A stretch of DNA of 46,262 bases from Candidatus Doudnabacteria bacterium. GTDB lineage: Bacteria > Patescibacteriota > Doudnabacteria > UBA920. Positions within the stretch are counted from its first letter, which is position 1, and each line of letters starts with the position of its first letter. Positions 21,662 through 33,468 of this stretch are shown here, one piece after another. A program made the translations under genes and the position numbers. The notes below the pieces were generated by a model, which made no database searches, had not been told where the DNA came from, and worked only from the letters and a program-made list of their open reading frames with translations. The DNA is taken from the NCBI GenBank assembly GCA_903908535.1, contig CAIVSE010000039.1, forward strand, positions 1 to 46,262. Direction: 5' to 3'.

Positions 21662-21691
21662 TTTCAAATCAATAGCATCCGATGTTAATCT

Positions 21692-23908
21692 ATGCCTACT
21701 TTAGAAAATCATAATTTTGAACCAGTTTTCCAAACAGAAATAGAACCGCAATATATTTTTAACGCGCTTAAAGAAAATAAGGACAGACAAATTCTGGCAA
21801 ATTTTACTCCTGATCAGCAAACAGAAATTAAACGCAAACAACAGCTTCTTTCGTCCTTAGCCTATTTTATAGGCAAGGATTTCCGCATTCCTGTGGAGTT
21901 AAATGAGCCGGGTCAGGGCTGGCACTGGGATTTTAAAGCCAACATTATCCGGGTTGACCCCAAGGACTTGCTGGAAAAGTCAATGGATTTTTTGCGCTTT
22001 GTGATTTCCCACGAAGGCGGCCACAGGCGCATTACCAGGACCGAATTTATTCCGGCCGAGGTTTGGAAACAGCCGGGCTTTTCTTTTATGATGAATGCCA
22101 TCGAAGACCCGCGTATGAACAATTTTGTGGCTGACGTTTACCCTAAATTTAGGGAACAGATGGCCTTGGCTTATGAACATGATTTGGGTTTTGAGATTGA
22201 AGCGAAAAATAAGGCCAAAGAAAAATTGGGTTACCAGCCAAAATTTATGCAGGCCGGGTTTGAATATATAAGGCAATGGTTTAGGGAAACCCAAAGTCTT
22301 GATTTTGAATTAACCAAGGATTTACCTGATGATGTTAAAGAAGTAGTTAACTCAACTTTAATTTCCGCTCAGGATTCCTGGCTGCGTTACCCTTCCAAGG
22401 CCGAGGCTGACAGCAGTGAACAATTAATTTCTCAATATGCCGAAGTCTCCTATGAAATAAACCGAGACAAGGTTTGGCCTGAATTTAAGAAATTGGTTGA
22501 ACAGGATATGGAAGACCAAAAAATGCAGGAAATGATGAAAGAGTCCCAGCAAAATGGCGAGGAAGAAAATGGTGCTCTATCTGGCGAATCCGCTCCCGGC
22601 AAACAGGGCTTACCACAAGACTTGAAAGATAAATTAACGCCAGAGGAACAGAAGCAACTGGAACAGGCTATTGATAAAGCTATAAAAGACCAGCAGGAAA
22701 AATCCAAACAAGAACAGGGGCAAGCTGGCCAGCCTGCTGCGGATTCATCGGCTGGACAAAAACCTGGCACGGTTGATTTAGATTCTTTATCGGAAGAGTT
22801 AAAACAAAAAATTCGCGACTATATTGATTCGCTACCGGATGACGTAAAAAAAGACTTGGCCAAAAAAGCCAAAGCTGCGCTCCATAAATTTGAAAAAGAT
22901 TTAAACGAGGAGCTCGAGGGTAAGCTTTTGCAGAACCCCGAAGCTACTGCGGAAGCTAAGACAGAGGCAGAAGCCGCGAAACCAACTGAAGACAGTAAAG
23001 CCAAACCAGAAATAAAAAAGCCACGGCGTGAAAAAGCAACCAAGTCACCGGAAGACGAGGCTGAACTGCAAAAGTACCGTGATATGCTGGAAGCCGAAGT
23101 TAAAAAAGATGCCAACGTATATGAGCAATACCGTAAAGAGGTTTTGCCGGTCATTGATAAGCTGGAGCAGGACTTGCGGGAAATATTTGTAGCCCGCAAA
23201 GTCAAAGGTTGGAAATCGGGTTTTAAAGCCGGCAAGCGCATTGACATTAAAAGGCGTATTCAGGAAAAAGCCAAAGACGTGCCGGTAATGGAAAGCCGCG
23301 CCTGGCAAAAACGTGAATTGCCGCACGAGAAAGATTATGCCATTACCCTATTGGTCGACTTATCTGGTTCCATGCAGGGTGAAAAAATTGAGGAAACATT
23401 TAAAGCCGTGATTGTTTTGGCTGAGGTCTTAAACAGGCTATCTATAAATGTTGAGATTTTAGGGTTTAATGACCGCATTTATGAATATGAAAATTTTGGC
23501 GACAAAATTTCCAAAGCCTCCCGCGAAAAAATGGGCGGTATGCTTTTAGAAGTAAGCGATAGCAGTGATACCGGCAAAGCAAGGTGGAATGATGACGGTT
23601 GGGCCCTGCAGCAGGCGTCCCAAAGATTAGCCAAACAAAAGGCTGACCATAAATTTTTAATTGTGCTGTCTGACGGTGTTCCTGAAGAATCGCGCATGCA
23701 TCCGGCTTCTTTATATGGTCTTTCTGATATTATCTCACAAGTTACCGAACAAACCGACCAAAAATTAATTGGATTGGGAATTGGCGAGGGCACAGAGCAC
23801 GTTTCTGAATACTACCCAAATAGTCTAGCTAATGTCCGGTTGCATGAAATGGCCGCTAAATTGGCTGATTTAATCGAGGATGTCATTGCCAATTATGCCA
23901 ATTTTTAG
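21692..23908 (+). CDS. VWA-domain protein with HEGGH motif (CobT-like)
   Basis: The 738-aa protein has three parts. Residues about 1-280 carry HEGGH at 107-111 followed by an IEDPR segment (137-141), a zincin-like arrangement seen in CobT-type proteins, though catalysis is not proven. Residues about 280-470 are a charged Gln/Glu/Lys linker. The C-terminal third is a von Willebrand A domain with a MIDAS motif DLSGS at 556-560 and an LSDG segment near 660. Proteins of this kind pair with MoxR-type AAA ATPases to form metal-insertion or remodelling machines. Two such ATPases follow 0.4 and 3 kb downstream, and the next gene starts 14 nt after its stop, so it is probably the partner of the DGR-diversified ATPases. 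Confidence 0.88.
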   Translation: MPTLENHNFEPVFQTEIEPQYIFNALKENKDRQILANFTPDQQTEIKRKQQLLSSLAYFIGKDFRIPVELNEPGQGWHWDFKANIIRVDPKDLLEKSMDFLRFVISHEGGHRRITRTEFIPAEVWKQPGFSFMMNAIEDPRMNNFVADVYPKFREQMALAYEHDLGFEIEAKNKAKEKLGYQPKFMQAGFEYIRQWFRETQSLDFELTKDLPDDVKEVVNSTLISAQDSWLRYPSKAEADSSEQLISQYAEVSYEINRDKVWPEFKKLVEQDMEDQKMQEMMKESQQNGEEENGALSGESAPGKQGLPQDLKDKLTPEEQKQLEQAIDKAIKDQQEKSKQEQGQAGQPAADSSAGQKPGTVDLDSLSEELKQKIRDYIDSLPDDVKKDLAKKAKAALHKFEKDLNEELEGKLLQNPEATAEAKTEAEAAKPTEDSKAKPEIKKPRREKATKSPEDEAELQKYRDMLEAEVKKDANVYEQYRKEVLPVIDKLEQDLREIFVARKVKGWKSGFKAGKRIDIKRRIQEKAKDVPVMESRAWQKRELPHEKDYAITLLVDLSGSMQGEKIEETFKAVIVLAEVLNRLSINVEILGFNDRIYEYENFGDKISKASREKMGGMLLEVSDSSDTGKARWNDDGWALQQASQRLAKQKADHKFLIVLSDGVPEESRMHPASLYGLSDIISQVTEQTDQKLIGLGIGEGTEHVSEYYPNSLANVRLHEMAAKLADLIEDVIANYANF

Positions 23909-23922
23909 TATATTTAAAGCAG

Positions 23923-24336
23923 ATGCAACAACACCACAATCTTAATGAATTTTTAAAAATTGCTTCCGGCCAGCGTGAGGTGGCTTTAATAATTTCCCGT
24001 GATGACAGCGAGTTACAGGAACAGCAACAGGTATTAAAGAAAAATGGTTTTGTAAAGGTTGACCGCACGGCAGAACTGCTAAAACAAATTCAGCAGCCAA
24101 CTAAATTATATTTTACTGTTTCTGGTACTATAAACAAAAATATTTACGACTTTATAGCCCAATTCCCGACCGGCCAAGTGGAAATTTTTGATAATTCCCA
24201 GATGAAAACTTCCGTATTCACGCCTGATTACGTAAACTTGTCAGTCGCCGCAGTTGTTACTAAAAAAGATTTATTGGCTTTGGAGGCTGTCGGTTTTAGC
24301 CTGAGGCAACATTGTGGAGTGGCTTACCAAGTTTAA
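23923..24336 (+). CDS. 137-aa partner protein A of the DGR target cassette
   Basis: I do not recognise the family. The protein is 137 aa with an alternating helix/strand pattern: an N-terminal helix, the block GQREVALIISRD, then a YDF-x-x-Q-x-PTGQ-x-EIF block near residues 75-90 and a C-terminal GVAYQ. The gene at 26462 encodes a clear paralogue of identical length. Each copy lies 3-5 nt upstream of an AAA ATPase with a variable tail, so each pair is likely co-translated and may form a complex. No membrane segment or signal peptide is seen. Confidence 0.8.
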   Translation: MQQHHNLNEFLKIASGQREVALIISRDDSELQEQQQVLKKNGFVKVDRTAELLKQIQQPTKLYFTVSGTINKNIYDFIAQFPTGQVEIFDNSQMKTSVFTPDYVNLSVAAVVTKKDLLALEAVGFSLRQHCGVAYQV

Positions 24337-24341
24337 AACTT

Positions 24342-26366
24342 ATGCGTTCACCAGAAACACAATTTAACCCTGAATCCGCAAATTCGCCAGAGCCAGTAAA
24401 AGAAACTGAGACCTCGGTTTCCTACTTAGGTGTTGCCTTAGAAAAAGCTACTATCAAAGGTGGAGATTTTGTGCCAAAGCGCGAGCAATACGAGGATTTT
24501 ATCAATGACAAAGAAATTGCCCTACCGCTCCAGCGTGATATTGCCGTAGCCTTTTTAAACGGCGAACCCATGTTAGTAGATGGAGGCACATCTTTGGGTA
24601 AAACTACCACGGTTCGTAAAATGTGTAGTGAGCTTGGATGGGAAGTCCATTACGCAAACTTAAATGGCGCAACCGATGTTGAGGATTTAATGGGCAGGTA
24701 TATTCCGAATCCTCACAAGAGAAATATTGACGACCCTGAATATATCTTTGCCGATGGAAAAGTTACGTCCGGCCTTAGGCAGGAAAAAGGCAAAGTTAAA
24801 GTAATTATTTTAGATGAATTCAACTCCTCGGCCCCGAACATACTTATACGCCTTCATGAAGTTTTGGACGCTTTAGAGCGCGGTGGCGATGTTGTACTGT
24901 CCGAGGATGCTTCCGAGGCCGTAAGTGTTAACAAGCAGCGCACTAAAATTATTGCCTTAATGAACCCGCCAGGAAAAGGTTATTTTGGCCGCGAACCTTT
25001 AGATCCTGCCCAGCTGCGCCGTTGGGTCTACAAAAAATTGCCGACCGAACTACCCGAAGGCACCTTTTCTCACTCTACCGATGCCCTGTTTGGGGCTGAA
25101 TCCTTAACGCAGCAAGTTCCAAAAGAAGCCTTTTTATTGGCGCGCGACCAAGTTTTAACACCAGAGCAATTACAAGAGATCCCCGGCCTGCCGGAAATTT
25201 TAGCCAAATACAAAGAATTTCATAAAGCCGCCAAGGAACTTTTAAAAAATAGGAAGATTGCCGAAGATCAGCCCCAGCCGTTTATGTATGATGACCGTAT
25301 GGAACCACGTCGTGTGCGTGATTTTATTCTCCGTTTTTATAACGGCGATATTAACGAAACTTTTCAAAATGCTTTGGGGTATTACTATGCCAATAAGCTT
25401 GAAACCGCTGATGACCAAAAAAAGTTAACGGAGCTTATCCGCCTTGTGGAATACAAACCTAAAGATGCCGAGTCAAAGCGCCGCCCCTTGGCTGCCCCCG
25501 ATGTTGCCCCGGAAACTGGCGCGGCCACACCAGACCGTCCTGAAACCACCAAAGGAGAAACCAATTACGAAAAAGCTAAGGAAATAATGGAAGAAAACTT
25601 TTTTGGATATGAGGAAATTTTAAAGGCTTGGGGTCCTGAGGTAGCGGATACAATTAAAGATAAAGACGGCTCTCCCCGCCCAGCTTGGAAAGAGGCAGTA
25701 AAGGATACGCCCCCCATACTATATAGCGAGGCGGAACTTAAGGATGCTAATAAAAATGGCGAGATGCTAATTCTTAGGGTCGCGACCGATAAGTCCGGCA
25801 AGCCCTTAACTATGAAGCGGCTTAATGAAATTGGTCAGCCGCGTTTAACTTCGGACGAAGGCAAATTATTATATAAAGTTGACTGGTTCAAAGATGAAGA
25901 CTTTTATAAAAATAAGTCTTTAACTTCGGAATGGGCTTTGGTTAAAAAAGATTTTGTACCCGGTTCAACCGGCAAGGACTATATTGAGCAAACCAGGGTG
26001 CTACGTGATTACCTAAAGGGACTGGGAACCTTAACAAAGGAAGAACTTGGGGAATGCAGCGATGCTATATTAAATAGCATTCGCGATTTAATGAAGTTCG
26101 ACATGAAGGCTGCCTCCCGACAACTTTCCGATTTATTAGTTAACAAAAACCACCGCAGGAGTCCGGGTGAAATTTTATACGACTGGATGCTATTATTCAA
26201 AAATGGGAAAGGCCGTCTGCTGGAAAAAACTTATGACTGGTCAAGCGCCCGTACTTCCGACGGCAGGCTTGTCAACTTTGGCTATGCCGATGCCGGGGGT
26301 GCCTATGTCTACGGGTACCATCCCGTCTATTCCAGCGATTTCTTGGGTGTGGTGTCCGTCCGCTAG
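24342..26366 (+). CDS. MoxR-like AAA ATPase with C-terminal DGR variable region (target 1)
   Basis: The 674-aa protein starts at ATG 24342, matching its paralogue; the GTG at 24312 is rejected. The AAA domain has Walker A GGTSLGKTT (81-89), Walker B VIILDEF (154-160), sensor 1 ALMNPP (205-210) and an arginine pair (226-227), the MoxR/AAA_5 pattern. A charged linker (about 370-410) leads to a C-terminal domain with GEMLILR, MKRLNEIGQPR and HRRSPGEILYDW, then YDWSSART and the 39-residue variable tail (636-674) ending LGVVSVR. The end resembles the C-type-lectin/FGE-like fold of DGR targets. Predicted role: ATP-driven remodeller whose specificity lies in the variable tail. Confidence 0.92.
   Translation: MRSPETQFNPESANSPEPVKETETSVSYLGVALEKATIKGGDFVPKREQYEDFINDKEIALPLQRDIAVAFLNGEPMLVDGGTSLGKTTTVRKMCSELGWEVHYANLNGATDVEDLMGRYIPNPHKRNIDDPEYIFADGKVTSGLRQEKGKVKVIILDEFNSSAPNILIRLHEVLDALERGGDVVLSEDASEAVSVNKQRTKIIALMNPPGKGYFGREPLDPAQLRRWVYKKLPTELPEGTFSHSTDALFGAESLTQQVPKEAFLLARDQVLTPEQLQEIPGLPEILAKYKEFHKAAKELLKNRKIAEDQPQPFMYDDRMEPRRVRDFILRFYNGDINETFQNALGYYYANKLETADDQKKLTELIRLVEYKPKDAESKRRPLAAPDVAPETGAATPDRPETTKGETNYEKAKEIMEENFFGYEEILKAWGPEVADTIKDKDGSPRPAWKEAVKDTPPILYSEAELKDANKNGEMLILRVATDKSGKPLTMKRLNEIGQPRLTSDEGKLLYKVDWFKDEDFYKNKSLTSEWALVKKDFVPGSTGKDYIEQTRVLRDYLKGLGTLTKEELGECSDAILNSIRDLMKFDMKAASRQLSDLLVNKNHRRSPGEILYDWMLLFKNGKGRLLEKTYDWSSARTSDGRLVNFGYADAGGAYVYGYHPVYSSDFLGVVSVR
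26246..26362 (+). repeat. DGR variable repeat VR1
   Basis: 117 nt aligned without gaps to TR (29337-29453). There are 14 differences: 13 fall on template adenines, and the one exception is C to T at 26339, a silent third-position change. The last 22 nt are identical and contain no A. The changes alter 12 residues, mostly Asn to Tyr, His or Ser. Confidence 0.96.
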
Positions 26367-26455
26367 CTTCTTCTCTTTTTGATCCTTTGTTATTTGCCCT
26401 TTGAGCCTTTGGTTTAGTAGTTTTCCCCGCAAGGGGTCGCTTAAAAAATATTTAT
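26363..26455 (+). promoter_or_regulatory. Conserved element downstream of VR1 (homing element candidate)
   Basis: From the stop codon on, this noncoding stretch matches the one after VR2 (29062-29155) with only a few differences. It includes a CCCC-GCAA-GGGG hairpin with a GNRA-type loop at 26425-26436, exactly 63 nt past the VR in both copies. TR has a different 3' flank. Known DGR targets need a 3' hairpin or initiation element to direct cDNA integration. Confidence 0.6.
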
Positions 26456-26461
26456 ACGTAT

Positions 26462-26875
26462 ATGCAACAAAACGATAAATTCCATCATTTTTTAGAAGCT
26501 ACTAAGGGACAACGGGAAGTAGGTTTAATTATTGCTCAGGATGAAAAGGAGTTGGAAACTTTACAGCAACAATTAACTATTGAGGATTTTTCTAATGTAA
26601 AAGATATTAATCAACTTTTAGACCAATTACCTAAAGGCGGCAAGTTTTTTTATATGACCAGCGGCATTTTAAATAAGGATATGTATGATTTTTTGGTGCA
26701 ATACCCAACTGGCCAAATAGAAATTTTTAACAAAGAGATCAGTAAATCCAAAATTATTATCCCCCCTTACAAGGATTCGACAGTGGTTTATTTGCTGACA
26801 AAAAATCAATTATCCGCTTTAAAGCTTTCCGGTAACCTAATTTTAGATAAAGTAGGAATAGCTTATCAATCATAA
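26462..26875 (+). CDS. 137-aa partner protein B of the DGR target cassette
   Basis: Paralogue of the gene at 23923 with the same length and the same landmarks: GQREVGLIIAQD near residue 16, YDFLVQYPTGQIEIF near 75-90 and GIAYQ at the end. Overall identity by eye is moderate, lower than that of the adjacent ATPase domains. It sits 3 nt before the second ATPase. The faster divergence of the small partner fits a protein that matches its own ATPase or its own ligand. The function is unknown. Confidence 0.8.
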   Translation: MQQNDKFHHFLEATKGQREVGLIIAQDEKELETLQQQLTIEDFSNVKDINQLLDQLPKGGKFFYMTSGILNKDMYDFLVQYPTGQIEIFNKEISKSKIIIPPYKDSTVVYLLTKNQLSALKLSGNLILDKVGIAYQS

Positions 26876-26878
26876 TTT

Positions 26879-29065
26879 ATGCATTCACCAGAAACACAAT
26901 TTAACCCTGAAGCCGAAAACCCACCGGAACCAATAAAAGAAACGGAAACTTCTGTTGCCTATTTGGGTGTCGCCTTGGAAAAAGCCACGGTCAAGGGTGG
27001 AGATTTTGTGCCCAAGCGTGAGCAATACGAGGATTTTATAAATGACAAGGATATTGCTTTGCCTTTGCAACGCGACATTGCCGTAGCCTTTTTAAACGGC
27101 GAACCCATGTTAGTAGATGGGGGCACGTCTTTGGGTAAAACCACAACAGTCCGTAAAATGTGCAGTGAACTTGGCTGGGAAGTCCACTATGCAAACTTAA
27201 ATGGCGCAACCGATGTGGAAGATTTAATGGGCAGATATATTCCCAATCCCCACAAAAAACACGCCGATGACCCGGAATATATTTTTGCGGACGGCAAGGT
27301 TACTTCCGGACTTAGGCAGGAAAAGGGGAAAATAAAAGTCGTGATTTTAGACGAATTTAACGCCTCGGCTCCCAATATCCTTATACGTCTGCATGAGGTT
27401 TTGGATGCCTTGGAGCGTGGTGGCGATGTTGTCTTGTCCGAGGATGCTTCTGAAGCGGTGGCGGTAAATAAACAACGTACCAAAGTAATAGCTTTAATGA
27501 ACCCTCCTGGCAAAGGATATTTCGGCAGGGAGCCTTTAGACCCCGCTCAGCTGAGAAGATGGGTATATAAAAAATTACCTTCGGAATTACCCGAGGCCAC
27601 TTTTTCTCATTCTACTGATGTGTTATTTGGAACCGAATTGGCAACACAGGAAATGCCTAAAAAAGAATTTTTAAGCGCGCGGGATAATTTATTGGTTCCT
27701 GAGCAGTTACAGGAAATCTCTGGTATGTCGGAAATTCTAGCCAAGTACAAAGAATTTCACAAAGCTGCAAAGGAACTTTTAAAAAACAGAAAAATTGCCG
27801 AAGACCAGCCTCAGCCGTTTACTTATGATGACCGGATGGAGCCGCGCCGCGTAAGGGATTTTGTCTTACGTTTTTACAATGGAGACATAAATGAGACTTT
27901 TCAACGGGCTTTGCAATATTACTATGTTAATAAACTAGAAAGTAAGGCAGACAAGGATAAACTGGGAGAATTAATTCGCTTAGTTGAATACAAGCCACCT
28001 GTTGAATCCAAACGAAAAGGTTTAGAGCCACTAGGGAATAATGAAGTAATAATAAATGGCGAAAAAATTATTTATGATCCCAATAAACCATTTTTGGGCA
28101 CACCGGTTGGTACTCGCTTTAACGAAAAAGCTACCGGTAAAAAATGGGTTCTCGCCGGCACTTGGACAAAGCGGGATTTAGCAGGAATGACTCCGCAACT
28201 GGCCGGCGTGTTTAAAAGTGGCGAAGAGGCAAGGATGGTGGGGGGCGATGAGTTAAGCAAAGGTTTTGAAAAAATGGCCACCAGGGAAAAAGGCGGCGAG
28301 GTTGCTTATGAAAAGGCTAAAGAGATTATGAAAGAAGACTTTTTTGGCTACGATGAAGTTCATAAAGCATGGGGTATGGATGTAGCCACCGGCTTGCCCG
28401 AGGGTACACCCCCAATCCCCTGGAACGAAGCCGAGCTGCGTGCGGCTAAAACCCAAGGCGAAATGTTAATATTAAGAATTGGTAAAGATAGAACCGGCAA
28501 GCCTTTTACCATGAAAAGGCTTAATGAGATTGGACAGCCCAGAATGACCAAGGACGAGGGCAAGCTACTGTTTGATACTGACTGGTATAAGGACGAGGCT
28601 TTTTATAAAAATGCTGCTTTTGAGACAAAATGGGTTTTGGCTAAAAAAGAATTTGTGCCTGACTCTGCCGGTAAAGACTATATTGAGCAGACGCGTGTTT
28701 TAAGGGATTATTTAAAAGGTATTGACGCAATTCCGGACAGTGAGCTGCGGGAATGCAGCGATGCAGTATTAGACACAATACGAAAAACCATGGGTTCAGA
28801 CTCGAAAAAAGCCTCTCAGCAATTAGCTGATTTATTGATTAATAAAAACCATCGTCGTAGTCCGGCAGAAATACTGTATGACTGGATGTTGCGACTTAAA
28901 AATAGAACAGAATGTACTTTAGAAAATACATATGACTGGTCAAGCGCCCGTACTTCCGGCGGCGGGCTTGTCAGCTTTGGCGATGCCGGTGCCGAGGGTG
29001 CCCTTGTCAGCGGGTACAGTCCCGACAATTCCTACGACTTCTTGGGTGTGGTGTCCGTCCGCTAG
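26879..29065 (+). CDS. MoxR-like AAA ATPase with C-terminal DGR variable region (target 2)
   Basis: The 728-aa paralogue of target 1 keeps Walker A, Walker B, sensor 1 and the arginine pair at the same positions (81-89, 154-160, 205-210, 226-227). The AAA halves are almost identical. After about residue 375 it carries an extra segment of some 50 residues (containing NGEKIIYDPNKPFLGTPVG and GKKWVLAGTW) that target 1 lacks. The C-terminal domain then resumes, with HRRSPAEILYDW, YDWSSART and the variable tail 690-728. The tail differs from that of target 1 and from the template, showing independent retrohoming. It is translationally coupled to the 137-aa gene upstream. Confidence 0.92.
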   Translation: MHSPETQFNPEAENPPEPIKETETSVAYLGVALEKATVKGGDFVPKREQYEDFINDKDIALPLQRDIAVAFLNGEPMLVDGGTSLGKTTTVRKMCSELGWEVHYANLNGATDVEDLMGRYIPNPHKKHADDPEYIFADGKVTSGLRQEKGKIKVVILDEFNASAPNILIRLHEVLDALERGGDVVLSEDASEAVAVNKQRTKVIALMNPPGKGYFGREPLDPAQLRRWVYKKLPSELPEATFSHSTDVLFGTELATQEMPKKEFLSARDNLLVPEQLQEISGMSEILAKYKEFHKAAKELLKNRKIAEDQPQPFTYDDRMEPRRVRDFVLRFYNGDINETFQRALQYYYVNKLESKADKDKLGELIRLVEYKPPVESKRKGLEPLGNNEVIINGEKIIYDPNKPFLGTPVGTRFNEKATGKKWVLAGTWTKRDLAGMTPQLAGVFKSGEEARMVGGDELSKGFEKMATREKGGEVAYEKAKEIMKEDFFGYDEVHKAWGMDVATGLPEGTPPIPWNEAELRAAKTQGEMLILRIGKDRTGKPFTMKRLNEIGQPRMTKDEGKLLFDTDWYKDEAFYKNAAFETKWVLAKKEFVPDSAGKDYIEQTRVLRDYLKGIDAIPDSELRECSDAVLDTIRKTMGSDSKKASQQLADLLINKNHRRSPAEILYDWMLRLKNRTECTLENTYDWSSARTSGGGLVSFGDAGAEGALVSGYSPDNSYDFLGVVSVR
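28945..29061 (+). repeat. DGR variable repeat VR2
   Basis: 117 nt aligned without gaps to TR. All 15 differences fall on template adenines (A to G nine times, to T five times, to C once). The 3' 22 nt are identical to TR and VR1. The changes alter 13 residues. Confidence 0.97.
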
Positions 29066-29155
29066 TTTCTTCTCTCTTTGCTCCTTTGTTATTTGACTTT
29101 TGAGCCTTTGGTTTAGTTGTTTTCCCCGCAAGGGGTCGCTTAAAAAAATATTATT
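29062..29155 (+). promoter_or_regulatory. Conserved element downstream of VR2
   Basis: Close copy of the element after VR1, including the CCCC-GCAA-GGGG hairpin at 29124-29135. It also abuts the promoter of the template RNA. Confidence 0.6.
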
Positions 29156-29164
29156 TGCTACAAT
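29156..29164 (+). promoter_or_regulatory. Extended -10 promoter of the template RNA
   Basis: TGCTACAAT (29156-29164) fits an extended -10; a poor -35 (TCGCTT, 29136-29141) lies 17 nt upstream. Predicted transcription start is near 29171. Confidence 0.5.
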
Positions 29165-29336
29165 AAATTTGGCTAATGCAGGGTCGGAGATTCTCTTGCC
29201 CTCGCCAATGTAAAATTATAGAGAAGAACTGCTTGTCTTTTTCTGGGCAGAACCTCTGCCTCATATTATATACAGTGGCCGCTACCCTGAATAAGGGATG
29301 TGTCCACAGTGACTAGATGGAAAAAGACAAACACCA

Positions 29337-29453
29337 CGCCCGTACTTCCGACGGCAAGCTTGTCAACTTTGGCAATGCCGATGCCAAGGGTGCCAATGTC
29401 AACAGGAACAATCCCGACAATTCCAACGACATCTTGGGTGTGGTGTCCGTCCG
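29337..29453 (+). repeat. DGR template repeat TR
   Basis: 117 nt with 27 adenines. Read in the target frame it contains many AAC/AAT codons (Asn), the classic TR bias that lets adenine mutagenesis reach many residues. Of the 27 adenines, 21 differ in at least one of the two VRs. The A-free 3' end (TTGGGTGTGGTGTCCGTCCG) is invariant. It is not itself part of a credible gene. Confidence 0.96.
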
Positions 29454-29472
29454 AAATTCTTTCTATAAATTT

Positions 29473-29506
29473 AAAAAACCAGCAGTTATTTACCTGTTGG
29501 TTTTTT
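29473..29506. terminator. Bidirectional terminator between TR and avd
   Basis: AAAAAACCAGCAG pairs with CTGTTGGTTTTTT (one G-U) around TTATTTAC. T-runs on both strands would end the template RNA and the converging avd transcript. Confidence 0.85.
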
Positions 29507-29870
29507 GTATGCTAACCATCCAGCCGCCAACCATCTTTCCGATTTCCTGGAGTTGGCCCTCGTATTTTACATACCAAATGGCATCCAGGGCGTGGATATC
29601 TTTGGCAAGGCGAATAAGGATTTTTAAACCTTCAAGGGCAATATTAGCCTCGCTCAGTGTTTCAAGTTTTAGATGTCCATCCTTGGTATGATAGGCCGTT
29701 ACAATTGAGATCAAAATTTCCAGCATGGAATTTTCCACTTTAATACCAATCGTCAGGCGGTCTCTTTTTGGGATAGAATCACACCTAATGTGCCAACTAC
29801 AAAATAACCGATAAAGCTCATCAAATAAGGGAGTGTGGTAAACTGTTTTTGTAAAGGAATTATTAGCCAT
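29490..29870 (-). CDS. avd: DGR accessory variability protein Avd
   Basis: The 126-aa protein has the four-helix-bundle pattern of Avd/23S-intervening-sequence proteins: an N-terminal helix with LFDELYRLF, the PKRDRLTIG turn, a long second helix, L-x-x-ANIALEGLKILIRLAKD and the terminal helix ending EIGKMVGGW. Avd forms a ring that binds the reverse transcriptase and template RNA. Start ATG at 29870 is preferred over 29894, which would overlap the RT gene. It lies on the strand opposite to TR and RT, 6 nt from the RT start, an arrangement unlike the usual avd-TR-RT order. Confidence 0.9.
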   Translation of the reverse strand: MANNSFTKTVYHTPLFDELYRLFCSWHIRCDSIPKRDRLTIGIKVENSMLEILISIVTAYHTKDGHLKLETLSEANIALEGLKILIRLAKDIHALDAIWYVKYEGQLQEIGKMVGGWMVSIQKTNR

Positions 29871-29876
29871 AATCTT

Positions 29877-30872
29877 ATGTTTAATTTTAATCAAATTATT
29901 TCTGTGGAAAATTTATTTTTAGCCTGGGAGGAGTTTAAGTCTGGAAAAACAAGGCGTAAGGACGTAGCTGAATTCGCGCTAAATTTGGAGGATAGCATTT
30001 TCAAATTGCAAAGCGATTTGGCAATGGGACAATACCGACACGGGCCATATCGTTCATTTTTTGTTTGCGACCCCAAGCGTCGCCATATTCACAAGGCAGG
30101 AGTCCGCGATAGGCTGCTGCATCACGCAATAGTCAGAATAATTGAACCTGCGTTTGACCGTATTTTTATTTATGATTCCTGGTCATGCCGCCAAATTAAG
30201 GGAAATCATTGGGCCGTAACAAGATTTCAGCAAATCGTACGGAAACTGTCTTTAAACAATAAACGAAATTTATGGGTCTTAAAACTGGATATTCGCAAAT
30301 TTTTTGATTCAATAAATCCTGTTATTTTAACAAAATTATTGGAAAAAGTCATTACTGACAGTCAAACTATGGAACTGCTCCAAAATATTATTGGGAGCTT
30401 TTCTCCGGGACTTCCCCTCGGCAACCTTACCTCCCAGCTTTTTGCCAATGTGTACATGAATCAATTAGATCAGTTTGTTAAACATGAACTCAAAATTAAA
30501 GGTTATATTCGCTATGCCGATGATTTTGCCTTGATACATACAGATAAAACCCTGTTGTTATCTTATATTCCAATTATAGAAAAATTTTTAAGAGAATGTT
30601 TGGATTTAACAGTTCATCCAGGCAAAAAAATACTCCGGAATTACCGGAGCGGAATTGACTTTTTGGGTTATGTCAATTTTCCCAGCCACAGTGTTTTGCG
30701 AACAAAAACAAAAAAGAGAATTTTCAAAAAAATCAATCCAAAAAATATTTCATCCTATCTTGGCCATTTAAGCCATTGCAGATCCCGTGGCATAAAACAG
30801 TCTTTAATATTAAAGGTTAAAAAACAAAGGAAAGCCGCAATTTTAGCGAGAAAAAAATCTGAACTTTTTTGA
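29877..30872 (+). CDS. DGR reverse transcriptase
   Basis: The 331-aa protein copies the template RNA into adenine-mutagenised cDNA. It shows LDIRKFFDS (137-145, first catalytic Asp), the DGR-specific GLPLGNLTSQ motif (178-187) and the YADDF active site (213-217), then a thumb with LGYVNF and a basic C-terminus. The length is typical of DGR enzymes, which lack RNase H and maturase domains. ATG 29877 gives the usual short N-terminus; the upstream GTG at 29835 is rejected. No Shine-Dalgarno is seen, and CATAAT 29868-29873 suggests a leaderless or short-leader mRNA. Confidence 0.95.
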   Translation: MFNFNQIISVENLFLAWEEFKSGKTRRKDVAEFALNLEDSIFKLQSDLAMGQYRHGPYRSFFVCDPKRRHIHKAGVRDRLLHHAIVRIIEPAFDRIFIYDSWSCRQIKGNHWAVTRFQQIVRKLSLNNKRNLWVLKLDIRKFFDSINPVILTKLLEKVITDSQTMELLQNIIGSFSPGLPLGNLTSQLFANVYMNQLDQFVKHELKIKGYIRYADDFALIHTDKTLLLSYIPIIEKFLRECLDLTVHPGKKILRNYRSGIDFLGYVNFPSHSVLRTKTKKRIFKKINPKNISSYLGHLSHCRSRGIKQSLILKVKKQRKAAILARKKSELF

Positions 30873-30882
30873 TTTTTTATGT

Positions 30883-30888
30883 TACAAT
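30883..30888 (+). promoter_or_regulatory. -10 box for the P-type ATPase gene
   Basis: TACAAT ends 10 nt before the ATG at 30899, leaving a leader of only a few bases. Confidence 0.45.
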
Positions 30889-30898
30889 ATAGGTACTG

Positions 30899-32740
30899 AT
30901 GAATAAAAAGTTTTTAATCTTTTTTGTCCCGGTAGTTGCTTTATTTGGCGTGGCTATGGCCGGGATTTGTTACGCTCTTACTGACGCTTTTGCCGGCAGG
31001 CTGGTTTTGGAGCTCATTTTAGTTTTAGGCTCCCTGCCGCTGCTGTTTAATTTAATTAAAGAACTGTTTAAGGGCCATTTTGGCGTGGATATTATTGCCG
31101 TCACCGCCATTGTGGTTTCGTTTTTGCTCGGCCAGTATTTGGCCGGGGCCGTGATAGTTTTAATGATGTCAGGCGGCGAGGCTTTGGAGGTTTACGCTTT
31201 GGAACGGGCCGGCCGGCAGTTAACCAATTTATTGTCCCGCGTGCCTACAACGGCGCATTTAAAACGCTCCGGCGGCTTGGAGGATATAAACGTTAACGCG
31301 GTAAAGGCCGGAGACATACTGGACATAAAGCCGGGGGAAATTATTCCGGTAGACGGTTTGGTAATGGAAGGCAGTTCGGAAGTGGATGAGTCGGCTGTTA
31401 CGGGCGAAAGCCTGCCGGTGGAAAAACAGGCCCACAGCCACGTTTTTTCCGGGACTTTAAACGGGGAGGGATTGTTAACGGCGCGGGCCGAAAAGCCGGC
31501 GCGTGACAGCCATTATGAGCAAATTGTCAGTTTGGTTAAGCAGGCCCAAGCCAGCCGCGCGCCCATTGTCCGTTTGGCTGACCGTTACGCGATATGGTTT
31601 ACAGTAATTACTTTTGCCATTGCCATTTTGGCCTGGCTGACCACACGCAATAATGTCATTTTTTTGGCCGTGCTGGTGGTGGCCACGCCCTGCCCGCTAA
31701 TTTTGGCCACGCCCATTGCCGTGATGTCCGGAATTTCCAAAGCCGCCGGGCGCGGCATTATTGTCAAAAACGGCGGGGCTTTGGAGCGGCTGGGTGAAGC
31801 CAAAAGTTTTGTGTTTGATAAAACCGGTACGCTCACGCTGGGCAGGCCAAAAGTTTTGGGTATGGAAGGTTCCCTGTTGCCGCCGGAGGAGGTTTTGCGG
31901 CTGGCCGCGTCCCTGGACCAGCTTTCCGCCCACATTTTTGCCCGGGCTTTGGTGAAGCATGCCCGCGAATTAAAATTGGAACTGGCTTTGCCGGAAAATT
32001 TTGAAGAAATTTTGGGGCAGGGGGTTATGGGAATGTTGGACGGTAAAAATTATATTTTAGGCAAATTAAAATTTCTGCAGGCCGGCGGCGTAGTTTTCTC
32101 CCCGGAAATTTTAAACCAGCACGGGAATTTTCAGGACCGCGGAATTATTGCCGTTTATCTGGCCGAGGATAAAAATTTATTGGGCTCGGTCAAGTTTTCC
32201 GACCTGCCACGCCCGGAAATTAAGGGCGTGTTTAATTCCATAAAATTACAGGGCATTAACCGCCTGGTCATGCTGACAGGCGACAAACAGCCGGTGGCGC
32301 AAACTATTGCCGCGGAAGTCGGCTTAACTGAATTTAAAGCCCAGCTGCTGCCCGAACAAAAACTTGAGCAGGTAAAAATTATCCAGCGCGAAAGCGGTCC
32401 TACGGCTTTTGTCGGAGACGGCATTAACGACGCCCCGGCCCTGGCCGCGGCCGACGTAGGGTTAGCCCTGGGTATTAATGGCGCCACGGCGGCTTCCGAT
32501 GCCGGCGATATTGTGGTTACAGTTAACAGCATGGAGCGGGTGAGTGAAGCTTTGTTTATTGCCCGCCGGGTCCTGAAAATTGCCAAGCAAAGCATTTTTG
32601 TGGGCATCGGGCTGTCCATAATTTTAATGCTTATTGCCGCTCTGGGCTACATCCCGCCGGTCTACGGCGCCGTCATTCAGGAGATTGTGGACGTGGGGGT
32701 TATCTTAAACGCCCTACGGGTGGGGATGGGAAAACTCTAA
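30899..32740 (+). CDS. P1B-type metal-transporting ATPase
   Basis: Integral membrane cation pump of 613 aa without an N-terminal metal-binding domain. Membrane segments lie at about 5-27, 34-53, 62-92, 229-248 and 253-280, with two more at the C-terminus. The actuator motif TGES is at 168-171, the ion-binding TPCPL at 263-267, the phosphorylation site DKTGT at 307-311, and GDGIND near 500. The P1B HP dipeptide of the nucleotide domain (SxHP) reads SAHIF (343-347), so the usual proline is missing. The metal is unclear: TPC rather than CPC argues against a standard copper pump. Its stop overlaps the next start (TAATG). Confidence 0.88.
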   Translation: MNKKFLIFFVPVVALFGVAMAGICYALTDAFAGRLVLELILVLGSLPLLFNLIKELFKGHFGVDIIAVTAIVVSFLLGQYLAGAVIVLMMSGGEALEVYALERAGRQLTNLLSRVPTTAHLKRSGGLEDINVNAVKAGDILDIKPGEIIPVDGLVMEGSSEVDESAVTGESLPVEKQAHSHVFSGTLNGEGLLTARAEKPARDSHYEQIVSLVKQAQASRAPIVRLADRYAIWFTVITFAIAILAWLTTRNNVIFLAVLVVATPCPLILATPIAVMSGISKAAGRGIIVKNGGALERLGEAKSFVFDKTGTLTLGRPKVLGMEGSLLPPEEVLRLAASLDQLSAHIFARALVKHARELKLELALPENFEEILGQGVMGMLDGKNYILGKLKFLQAGGVVFSPEILNQHGNFQDRGIIAVYLAEDKNLLGSVKFSDLPRPEIKGVFNSIKLQGINRLVMLTGDKQPVAQTIAAEVGLTEFKAQLLPEQKLEQVKIIQRESGPTAFVGDGINDAPALAAADVGLALGINGATAASDAGDIVVTVNSMERVSEALFIARRVLKIAKQSIFVGIGLSIILMLIAALGYIPPVYGAVIQEIVDVGVILNALRVGMGKL

Positions 32741-33453
32741 TGGCTAATTTTTTTGGGCATGACAGTAAATATCTAATCAGGGAAGACCACGAATATTTGT
32801 TGTGGGCAGTTTTAATAATTTTGGCGCCGCTTCTTATTATTTTTTTACTGGTAAAATTTTCGTCTCCGGCCATTGTCATCAGCGCTGCCGCGGTTTTGCT
32901 GGTTTTTGTCATCAAATGGCTGCAGCCGCTCATCTATTATTTCCAGCACCAGTCCCATAAATTCGCCAAAGGCTTAAGCGGCGAAAAGGACATTAAAAAA
33001 GAACTTTCTGAATTGCCGGACAGTTTTAGCGTCTTCCATGGGGTGGTTTTAAATAAAGACAAGGGCGATATAGATTTTGTTTTAGCCGGGCCCAAGGGTT
33101 TGTTTGTGCTGGAGGTCAAAAGCATTGGCGGTAATATTGGCTACAATGGCAGCCGGCTGACAATAAATGACAGGCCCATGTATGGCAAAAATTATTTGGA
33201 CCAGACGTTTGGCGAAGCCCGGGCCGTGGCCCAGTTTTTGCGCCGGCACCTGGATGTCGACGCCTACATTAAGCCGGTCCTGCTGTTTTCCAGCGCGCAT
33301 GCCGCGGCGCCATTCGGCGACGAGCCCGTTGACGGCGTCTATGTGGCGCAAAAAGATTTTTTGTTTTCTTTAATCCATTCCTTTCCCGACTACCAGTGGC
33401 AGCCGGGGGAGCGCGCCAAGGTGGAGGCCGCGCTACTGACCACGGTAAAATGA
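32740..33453 (+). CDS. NERD-domain membrane protein
   Basis: The 237-aa protein has two membrane segments at about 20-40 and 44-62, then a cytosolic NERD (nuclease-related) domain. That domain shows GLSGEKDIKKEL, GDIDFVLAGPKGLFVLEVKS with the Asp and Glu-x-Lys expected of this nuclease-like fold, and a later QFLRRHL helix. Whether it cuts nucleic acid is unknown. It overlaps the ATPase stop by one base (TAATG), so the two are translated together. Confidence 0.85.
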   Translation: MANFFGHDSKYLIREDHEYLLWAVLIILAPLLIIFLLVKFSSPAIVISAAAVLLVFVIKWLQPLIYYFQHQSHKFAKGLSGEKDIKKELSELPDSFSVFHGVVLNKDKGDIDFVLAGPKGLFVLEVKSIGGNIGYNGSRLTINDRPMYGKNYLDQTFGEARAVAQFLRRHLDVDAYIKPVLLFSSAHAAAPFGDEPVDGVYVAQKDFLFSLIHSFPDYQWQPGERAKVEAALLTTVK

Positions 33454-33456
33454 TGG

Positions 33457-33462
33457 TATACT
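33457..33462 (+). promoter_or_regulatory. -10 box for the FAD oxidoreductase, leaderless
   Basis: TATACT ends 6 nt before the ATG at 33469. Confidence 0.5.
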
Positions 33463-33468
33463 ATATAC

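Follow-up and report, generated by a model that had tools for sequence, protein, structure and literature searches.

Fusions of an AAA ATPase to a variable repeat (VR) are reported (Paul et al., 2017, as cited in PMC10907252) to be the commonest target of diversity-generating retroelements (DGRs) in bacteria of the Candidate Phyla Radiation (CPR). These bacteria have tiny, gene-poor cells with many DGRs. MoxR-type ATPases and von Willebrand factor A (vWA or VWA) proteins also meet in four described ternary systems, in which many VMAP copies come with DGRs, the vWA protein is in most cases the one that carries the variable domain, and VMAP, iSTAND, an FtsH-like protein or a beta-propeller serves as third component (Kaur et al., 2020, PMC7159879). 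How such a pair can work is illustrated by the NorQ-NorD structures, where the VWA protein puts a finger into the hexamer pore and ATP turnover remodels the partner (PMC13036017). Here we analysed a 46,262-nucleotide contig of a Candidatus Doudnabacteria bacterium (CAIVSE010000039.1, assembly GCA_903908535.1), the whole of which is referred to as the window. In it, a DGR adjoins genes for a CobT-like VWA protein, a small protein of 137 residues and a CobS/NorQ-type AAA+ ATPase with a VR tail, the latter two genes being present twice. We read this gene set as a horizontally mobile, DGR-diversified MoxR/VWA ternary machine for conflict or recognition, and give this reading a probability of roughly 0.58. 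It would link a class of CPR DGRs with a defined machine of three proteins, driven by ATP and mobile, whose compact operon is amenable to expression.

The DGR of the window is complete, with a template repeat (TR), a bAvd gene, a reverse transcriptase (RT) and two targets (Table 1). The initial annotation had claimed as much, and each of these parts was found in place; its assignment of the targets to MoxR-class ATPases, and of their neighbour to a VWA protein with an HEGGH motif, is likewise borne out by the family matches of the VR-bearing genes and of the VWA gene. The RT lies near the TR and carries an LGxxxSQ-type motif together with YADD. The Avd protein scores above the bAvd cut-off and, at 60.9 of 80 bits, below that of NCBIfam DivGenRetAVD.

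Diversification of the tails is adenine-specific. Over the 117-nt repeat, VR1 differs from the TR at 14 sites, 13 of which are A in the TR (chance p 6e-8), and VR2 at 15 sites, every one of them A in the TR (p 3e-10); both values were computed given 27 A among the 117 TR positions (23% expected). An A is contained in 17/38 codons of the TR frame, 25 of the 26 changed codons in the window VRs encode another amino acid, and the TR gives access to about 10^15.7 protein variants. Six related loci on other contigs, which we denote by L numbers (L006, L018, L019, L024, L028 and L051), show the same A-specific diversification of the tail, and in all six a complete DGR adjoins the gene set.

The two tails bear the signature of recopying from one template while the remaining sequence diverged under purifying selection. 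The ATPase cores of copies 1 and 2 are 87% identical, with a synonymous divergence (dS) of ~2.3, a non-synonymous divergence (dN) of 0.10 and a dN/dS of ~0.04, and synonymous sites are saturated in the 137-residue genes and in the ATPase C-terminal half as well. Only the VR shows low dS, VR1 and VR2 differing by a dS of 0.03 and a dN of 0.20. Because this near-zero synonymous difference is found amid saturated surrounding genes, both VRs must have been rewritten recently, and because dS is saturated, the two ATPase genes and the two 137-residue genes are old duplicates. Gene conversion was considered as the cause of the 87% identity of the ATPase cores against 39% for the 137-residue proteins, and was ruled out by the saturation of synonymous sites in both. 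In phage-borne loci, dS at the VR-bearing end of the ATPase gene is 0.11 (L018/L019) and 0.09 (L019/L049), versus at least 0.9 elsewhere in the gene.

In CPR bacteria as well as in phage contigs, genes of the three protein families form an operon: when the gene set of the window was sought in other CPR genomes, the combination of VWA, small protein, ATPase with VR, and DGR recurred both there and in phage contigs. Almost every related locus has a homologue of the small protein, 133-155 residues long, next to its VWA gene and also next to the ATPase gene wherever that gene is on the contig; none was seen in L055, a short contig. The duplicated 137-residue partner, earlier proposed as a possible new variant, is therefore not the novelty, since nearly all loci compared have a protein of this kind next to the VWA gene; what is local to the window is only the tandem cassette of small protein and ATPase-VR. 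The distribution of the set is patchy. Full-length relatives of the ATPase were found in the genome-contig search only in L006, L007 and L008, the small-protein profile matched in 6/380 genomes drawn from the phylum, and the VWA profile matched the window genome alone among 49 of its class and 9/381 in another class.

The gene set is strongly, not obligately, tied to a DGR. Besides the six loci with complete DGRs, an A-specific TR/VR pair with Avd and RT is found next to the VWA gene in L053 and in L055, the RT of the latter being a fragment. L050 has both Avd and RT, with no TR detected. Three loci (L022, L049 and L052) are truncated by contig ends. L023 lacks a DGR beside the set, and its genome has a frameshift-split RT on another contig; for L022 and L023, no trans-acting TR was found in the RT-bearing stretches examined. 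The genome of L008 (G239; 99% complete, in about five contigs) keeps the operon with no RVT_1 match at all. The operons of L007 and L008 are nearly identical, save for strong blockwise differences, synonymous sites included, in the C-terminal half of the ATPase (L007:11440-12022 and L008:11440-12049). A DGR as the source of this difference was rejected, neither genome having an RVT_1 match; given that and the synonymous differences, recombination by block replacement or ordinary divergence is likelier. In L057, a VWA-ATPase-small protein trio has an ATPase without VR and no DGR at hand. To either side of this trio lie tandemly arrayed repeat proteins (MSEKILEF...), at least nine paralogues whose internal repeats vary (L057:4792-17329); such an array is perhaps another way of making variable partners.

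Several features of the DGRs themselves were observed. The placement of avd antisense between a same-strand TR and RT, as at 29337-30872 of the window, is kept in L006, L018, L019, L024, L025, L028, L051, L053 and L055; in this layout avd ends at most ~50 nt from the TR and starts at the RT start, and a spacer RNA downstream of the TR would be antisense to avd. Tracts of (GA)n/(CT)n, 20-38 nt long, occur inside the RT frames of CPR DGRs (L079:4833-5880; L024:8870-8907; L083:118-143; the RT gene 2540-3643 of L080), and the L079 RT is broken into two frames at its tract. Judging from the sequence, such in-frame tracts could possibly allow phase-variable switching of a DGR; the window RT has none. 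A second DGR-type RT of the window's own genome (G000) lies at the end of contig C3 beside an MreB-like gene (L078:2-895). This RT was considered as acting on the window VRs and rejected, no matching TR being present in that 3.8-kb contig.

Table 1. Features of the gene set and its surroundings, in window coordinates.
Feature	Coordinates	Strand	Remarks
CobT-like VWA protein, 738 aa	21692..23908	+	CobT_C 3.1e-16; VWA 3.4e-07
137-aa third component, copy 1	23923..24336	+	predicted P-loop-less AAA+-like fold
CobS/NorQ-type AAA+ ATPase with C-terminal VR, copy 1	24342..26366	+	AAA_5 1.3e-11; Walker A GGTSLGKT, Walker B VIILDE intact
VR1	26246..26362	+	13/14 differences from TR at adenines
137-aa third component, copy 2	26462..26875	+	39% identical to copy 1; saturated dS
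CobS/NorQ-type AAA+ ATPase with C-terminal VR, copy 2	26879..29065	+	AAA_5 2.4e-11; extra ~90-aa linker insert
VR2	28945..29061	+	15/15 differences from TR at adenines; dS 0.03 vs VR1
Template repeat TR	29337..29453	+	117-nt repeat family; A-specific direction of change
Avd accessory protein gene	29490..~29870	-	antisense, between TR and RT; bAvd 8.9e-16
DGR-type reverse transcriptase	~29877..30872	+	RVT_1 5.5e-20; motifs LGNLTSQ, YADD
Inserted stretch between HAD hydrolase and FAD-oxidase genes	21662..33468		contents: module, P-type ATPase, NERD gene

The module of the window is part of an 11.8-kb insertion missing from five relatives, and the gene set is horizontally mobile. More specifically, the gap between the HAD hydrolase gene and the flavin adenine dinucleotide (FAD)-oxidase gene measures 0.15-1 kb in five genomes of the same family, where it sometimes holds a glycosyltransferase-like gene, versus 11.8 kb here. 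In the phage contigs L018 and L019 (both from IMG/VR) and in L049, the set follows an SU10-type portal gene and a TPR-HEPN_LA2681 gene. In L018 and L019 it also precedes the capsid gene, which Pfam assigns to the SU10 type in L018 and which belongs to that family in L019 too, and is co-directional with the head genes. In L028, a TerL gene (1.2e-72) and a type III restriction-modification (R-M) pair stand beside the set. Further company of this kind consists of AbiEii genes adjoining the set in L024 and L051 and a type IIG R-M gene with an SNF2/PLD helicase upstream of it in L019. An ATPase profile built from the first alignment gave no matches among the viral contigs, the phage copies being reached with other queries, and a search of the phage collection with the ATPase returned only a distant match to HHTV-2.

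The position between portal and major capsid genes in L018 and L019, shared on the portal side by L049, and the TerL gene of L028 lend themselves to another explanation, namely that the set is a phage-derived module. The late-made ATPase-VR complex would assemble or ride in the particle, its tail would bind a changing host or virion component, and the chromosomal copies would have been captured; most phage DGRs indeed diversify attachment proteins (PMC8144416). We consider this unlikely. Most copies are in bacterial contigs with no recognised phage genes nearby, that of the window lying between chromosomal genes, the HEPN gene that accompanies the phage copies suits cargo, and an ATP-driven ring would be an unusual part of a virion.

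The proteins themselves resemble known remodelling pairs. Both window ATPases have intact Walker A and Walker B motifs, the start of the first being most likely the ATG at 24342 and not the listed TTG. When compared to solved structures (PDB), the ATPase profile matched midasin, CobS, NorQ and CbbQ, and the VWA profile matched CobT and midasin. The VWA protein has a metal ion-dependent adhesion site (MIDAS)-type DLSGSM motif and, near its N-terminus, HEGGH at residues 107-111 followed by NAIEDPR. HExxH is kept in 18/18 VWA homologues compared, with a downstream EDP motif in nearly all. By its motifs, HExxH plus a downstream glutamate ligand, the N-terminal domain has the zincin signature and is predicted to be metallopeptidase-like.

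Since these closest solved relatives are cofactor-insertion or enzyme-activation chaperones, the set could be a machine of the CobST/NorQD/CbbQO kind whose variable tail merely adapts it to changing client enzymes. Phage CobST has been proposed to serve cobalamin synthesis (PMC8651126), and a P-type metal ATPase adjoins the window copy. We nevertheless regard this explanation as improbable: scores fall far short of the equivalog cut-offs (13.6 of 558.55 bits for CobS, 34.4 of 759.05 bits for CobT), no CobN, NOR or Rubisco partner gene stands beside the copies, and a client requiring ~10^15 tail variants is hard to imagine. The least probable alternative, a host-attachment or epibiont-host system with the variable tail displayed on, or delivered to, another cell, agrees with the roles that reviews propose for CPR DGRs (PMC8867640) and with a VirB4-like gene cluster, read by eye and not by family search, beside the L006 copy, but is at odds with the need of ATP-driven rings for cytosolic ATP and with the window's three kinds of protein, in which no hydrophobic stretch matches a transmembrane segment or signal peptide and which thus likely form a cytosolic machine.

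The DGR target is the last ~40 residues of the ATPase, which resemble other DGR variable domains. The best PDB profile match of the tail is the Treponema variable protein TvpA, a weak match (E = 0.062) with no Pfam support, and a C-type-lectin fold is therefore not established. The full-length predicted model of the ATPase has a mean pLDDT of 57 and is confident in the C-terminal half only, for which reason a fold search with it identified the AAA domain alone. Stand-alone copies of the ATPase C-terminal half, without the AAA domain, occur at L006:12160-13140, L024:6206-7171, L028:12103-13104, L051:16078-17028, L081:2797-3726 and L082:1136-2089. Those beside a TR bear a second VR, which suggests that this domain also acts as a protein of its own.

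The 137-residue protein has no convincing family match, Pfam, PADLOC and PHROG included. Profile searches found its family beside VWA genes elsewhere, as described above, with near and intermediate members linked at 99% and intermediate and distant ones at 95% in profile comparison; the weakest members are L053 and the truncated L054. Structure prediction modelled an AAA+-like core (AlphaFold2, pLDDT 88, pTM 0.83). With this model, Foldseek placed AAA+ or related P-loop ATPases, including RuvB, NorQ, CbbQ and MCM, at the top of both libraries, at moderate TM-scores of 0.38-0.64 on the query. A Walker A motif is absent from 18/18 members of the family, hence our label 'P-loop-less'. Profile-profile comparison with the system's own ATPase was tried as a way of deriving the protein from an AAA domain and gave no support, so that support comes from the fold. 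The protein reads as a P-loop-less AAA+-like subunit, as far as a predicted model can tell.

We hypothesize that these parts work together as follows. By analogy with NorQ-NorD, the ATPase would form a hexamer with its VWA partner, and up to six variable tails would make up a site that can be re-aimed to bind a cytosolic partner. Once the ligand is bound, ATP would drive remodelling of either the ligand or the VWA protein, the latter perhaps exposing the metallopeptidase-like domain, and the small pseudo-AAA protein might serve as ring adaptor or regulator. As an outcome, a foreign protein from a phage or mobile element would be inactivated, or a response triggered. If the tail is the sensor, reverse transcription would here be diversifying a programmable AAA+ receptor in cells with genomes of ~1 Mb.

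In favour of a mobile conflict or recognition machine we count the A-only changes of the tail, the collapse of dS in the VR, the constant gene trio, the nearest solved relatives (NorQ, CobS, CobT, CbbQ and midasin, all ATPase-VWA remodellers), the cytosolic features, the HEPN, AbiEii and R-M company, and the patchy distribution, empty sites and phage carriage. Several points weigh on the other side. The small protein is called AAA+ from a predicted fold, for which TM-scores are moderate and the sequence gives no support. The defence genes are observed neighbours, counted with no background rate for comparison, and the window copy has as neighbours genes for a HAD hydrolase, a P-type ATPase and a NERD protein, none of them a defence gene. 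The operon without any RT in L008 implies that diversification is not essential everywhere, and PADLOC has no model for the trio. To our knowledge, neither a ligand or complex of the trio nor an ATPase or anti-phage activity has been reported. The earlier suggestion of a recognition or conflict machine rather than a surface adhesin thus holds for the cytosolic-looking proteins and the conflict-type genes beside related loci, and less well for the window with its non-defence neighbours, the conflict role itself being an inference. A more ambitious version remains tentative, and the odds are somewhat against it: a mobile, re-aimable, possibly proteolytic AAA+ remodelling machine with a dedicated catalytically dead AAA-like subunit and a retroelement-made repertoire, resembling an immune repertoire, used by CPR bacteria against phages and by phages against rivals.

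Compared to known systems, the CobS/CobT, NorQ/NorD and CbbQ/CbbO pairs share an AAA_5 (MoxR) ATPase and a VWA partner and include the nearest solved structures, whereas the variable ATPase tail, the HExxH motif on the VWA protein and the extra small protein are found only here. The CobST-like pairs of tailed viruses (ICP2, Gordonia phages, HHTV-2; PMC8651126), to which the phage contigs L029 (3441-5564) and L030 (1035-3175) belong, share the AAA and VWA pair; in L029 and L030 the VWA protein has no N-terminal HEGGH region, and neither VR nor DGR is present. With the MoxR-vWA ternary conflict systems (PMC7159879), the set shares a MoxR-type AAA+ ATPase, a vWA partner with a metal site, a third protein, a frequent DGR and a proposed role in intracellular recognition; the iSTAND of those systems is a catalytically dead AAA+ protein too. 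They carry the VR mostly on the vWA protein, while here it is on the ATPase (window, L006, L018, L019, L024, L028 and L051), and in place of VMAP, iSTAND, FtsH or a beta-propeller the third protein has a P-loop-less fold of ~137 residues. No effector-associated domain (EAD), trypsin or caspase parts were seen in the present loci, whose hosts are CPR bacteria and phages. Given the different third component and the different position of the VR, we do not file the set as a member of the published systems, and the earlier link to them stands for the ATPase/VWA class and not for membership; it may well work like one of them. The CPR AAA-VR fusions, as cited in PMC10907252, join an AAA ATPase to a DGR-variable tail in the same group of bacteria and very probably represent the same target class, to which the present analysis adds that the VWA/HEGGH and small proteins are constant partners, that phages carry the set, that empty sites exist and that one lineage has lost the DGR. 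Taken together, since AAA-VR fusions and MoxR-VWA-DGR systems are both published, the set is a new version of a known DGR/ATPase-VWA theme, its composition, its unmatched third component and its carriage by phages being new.

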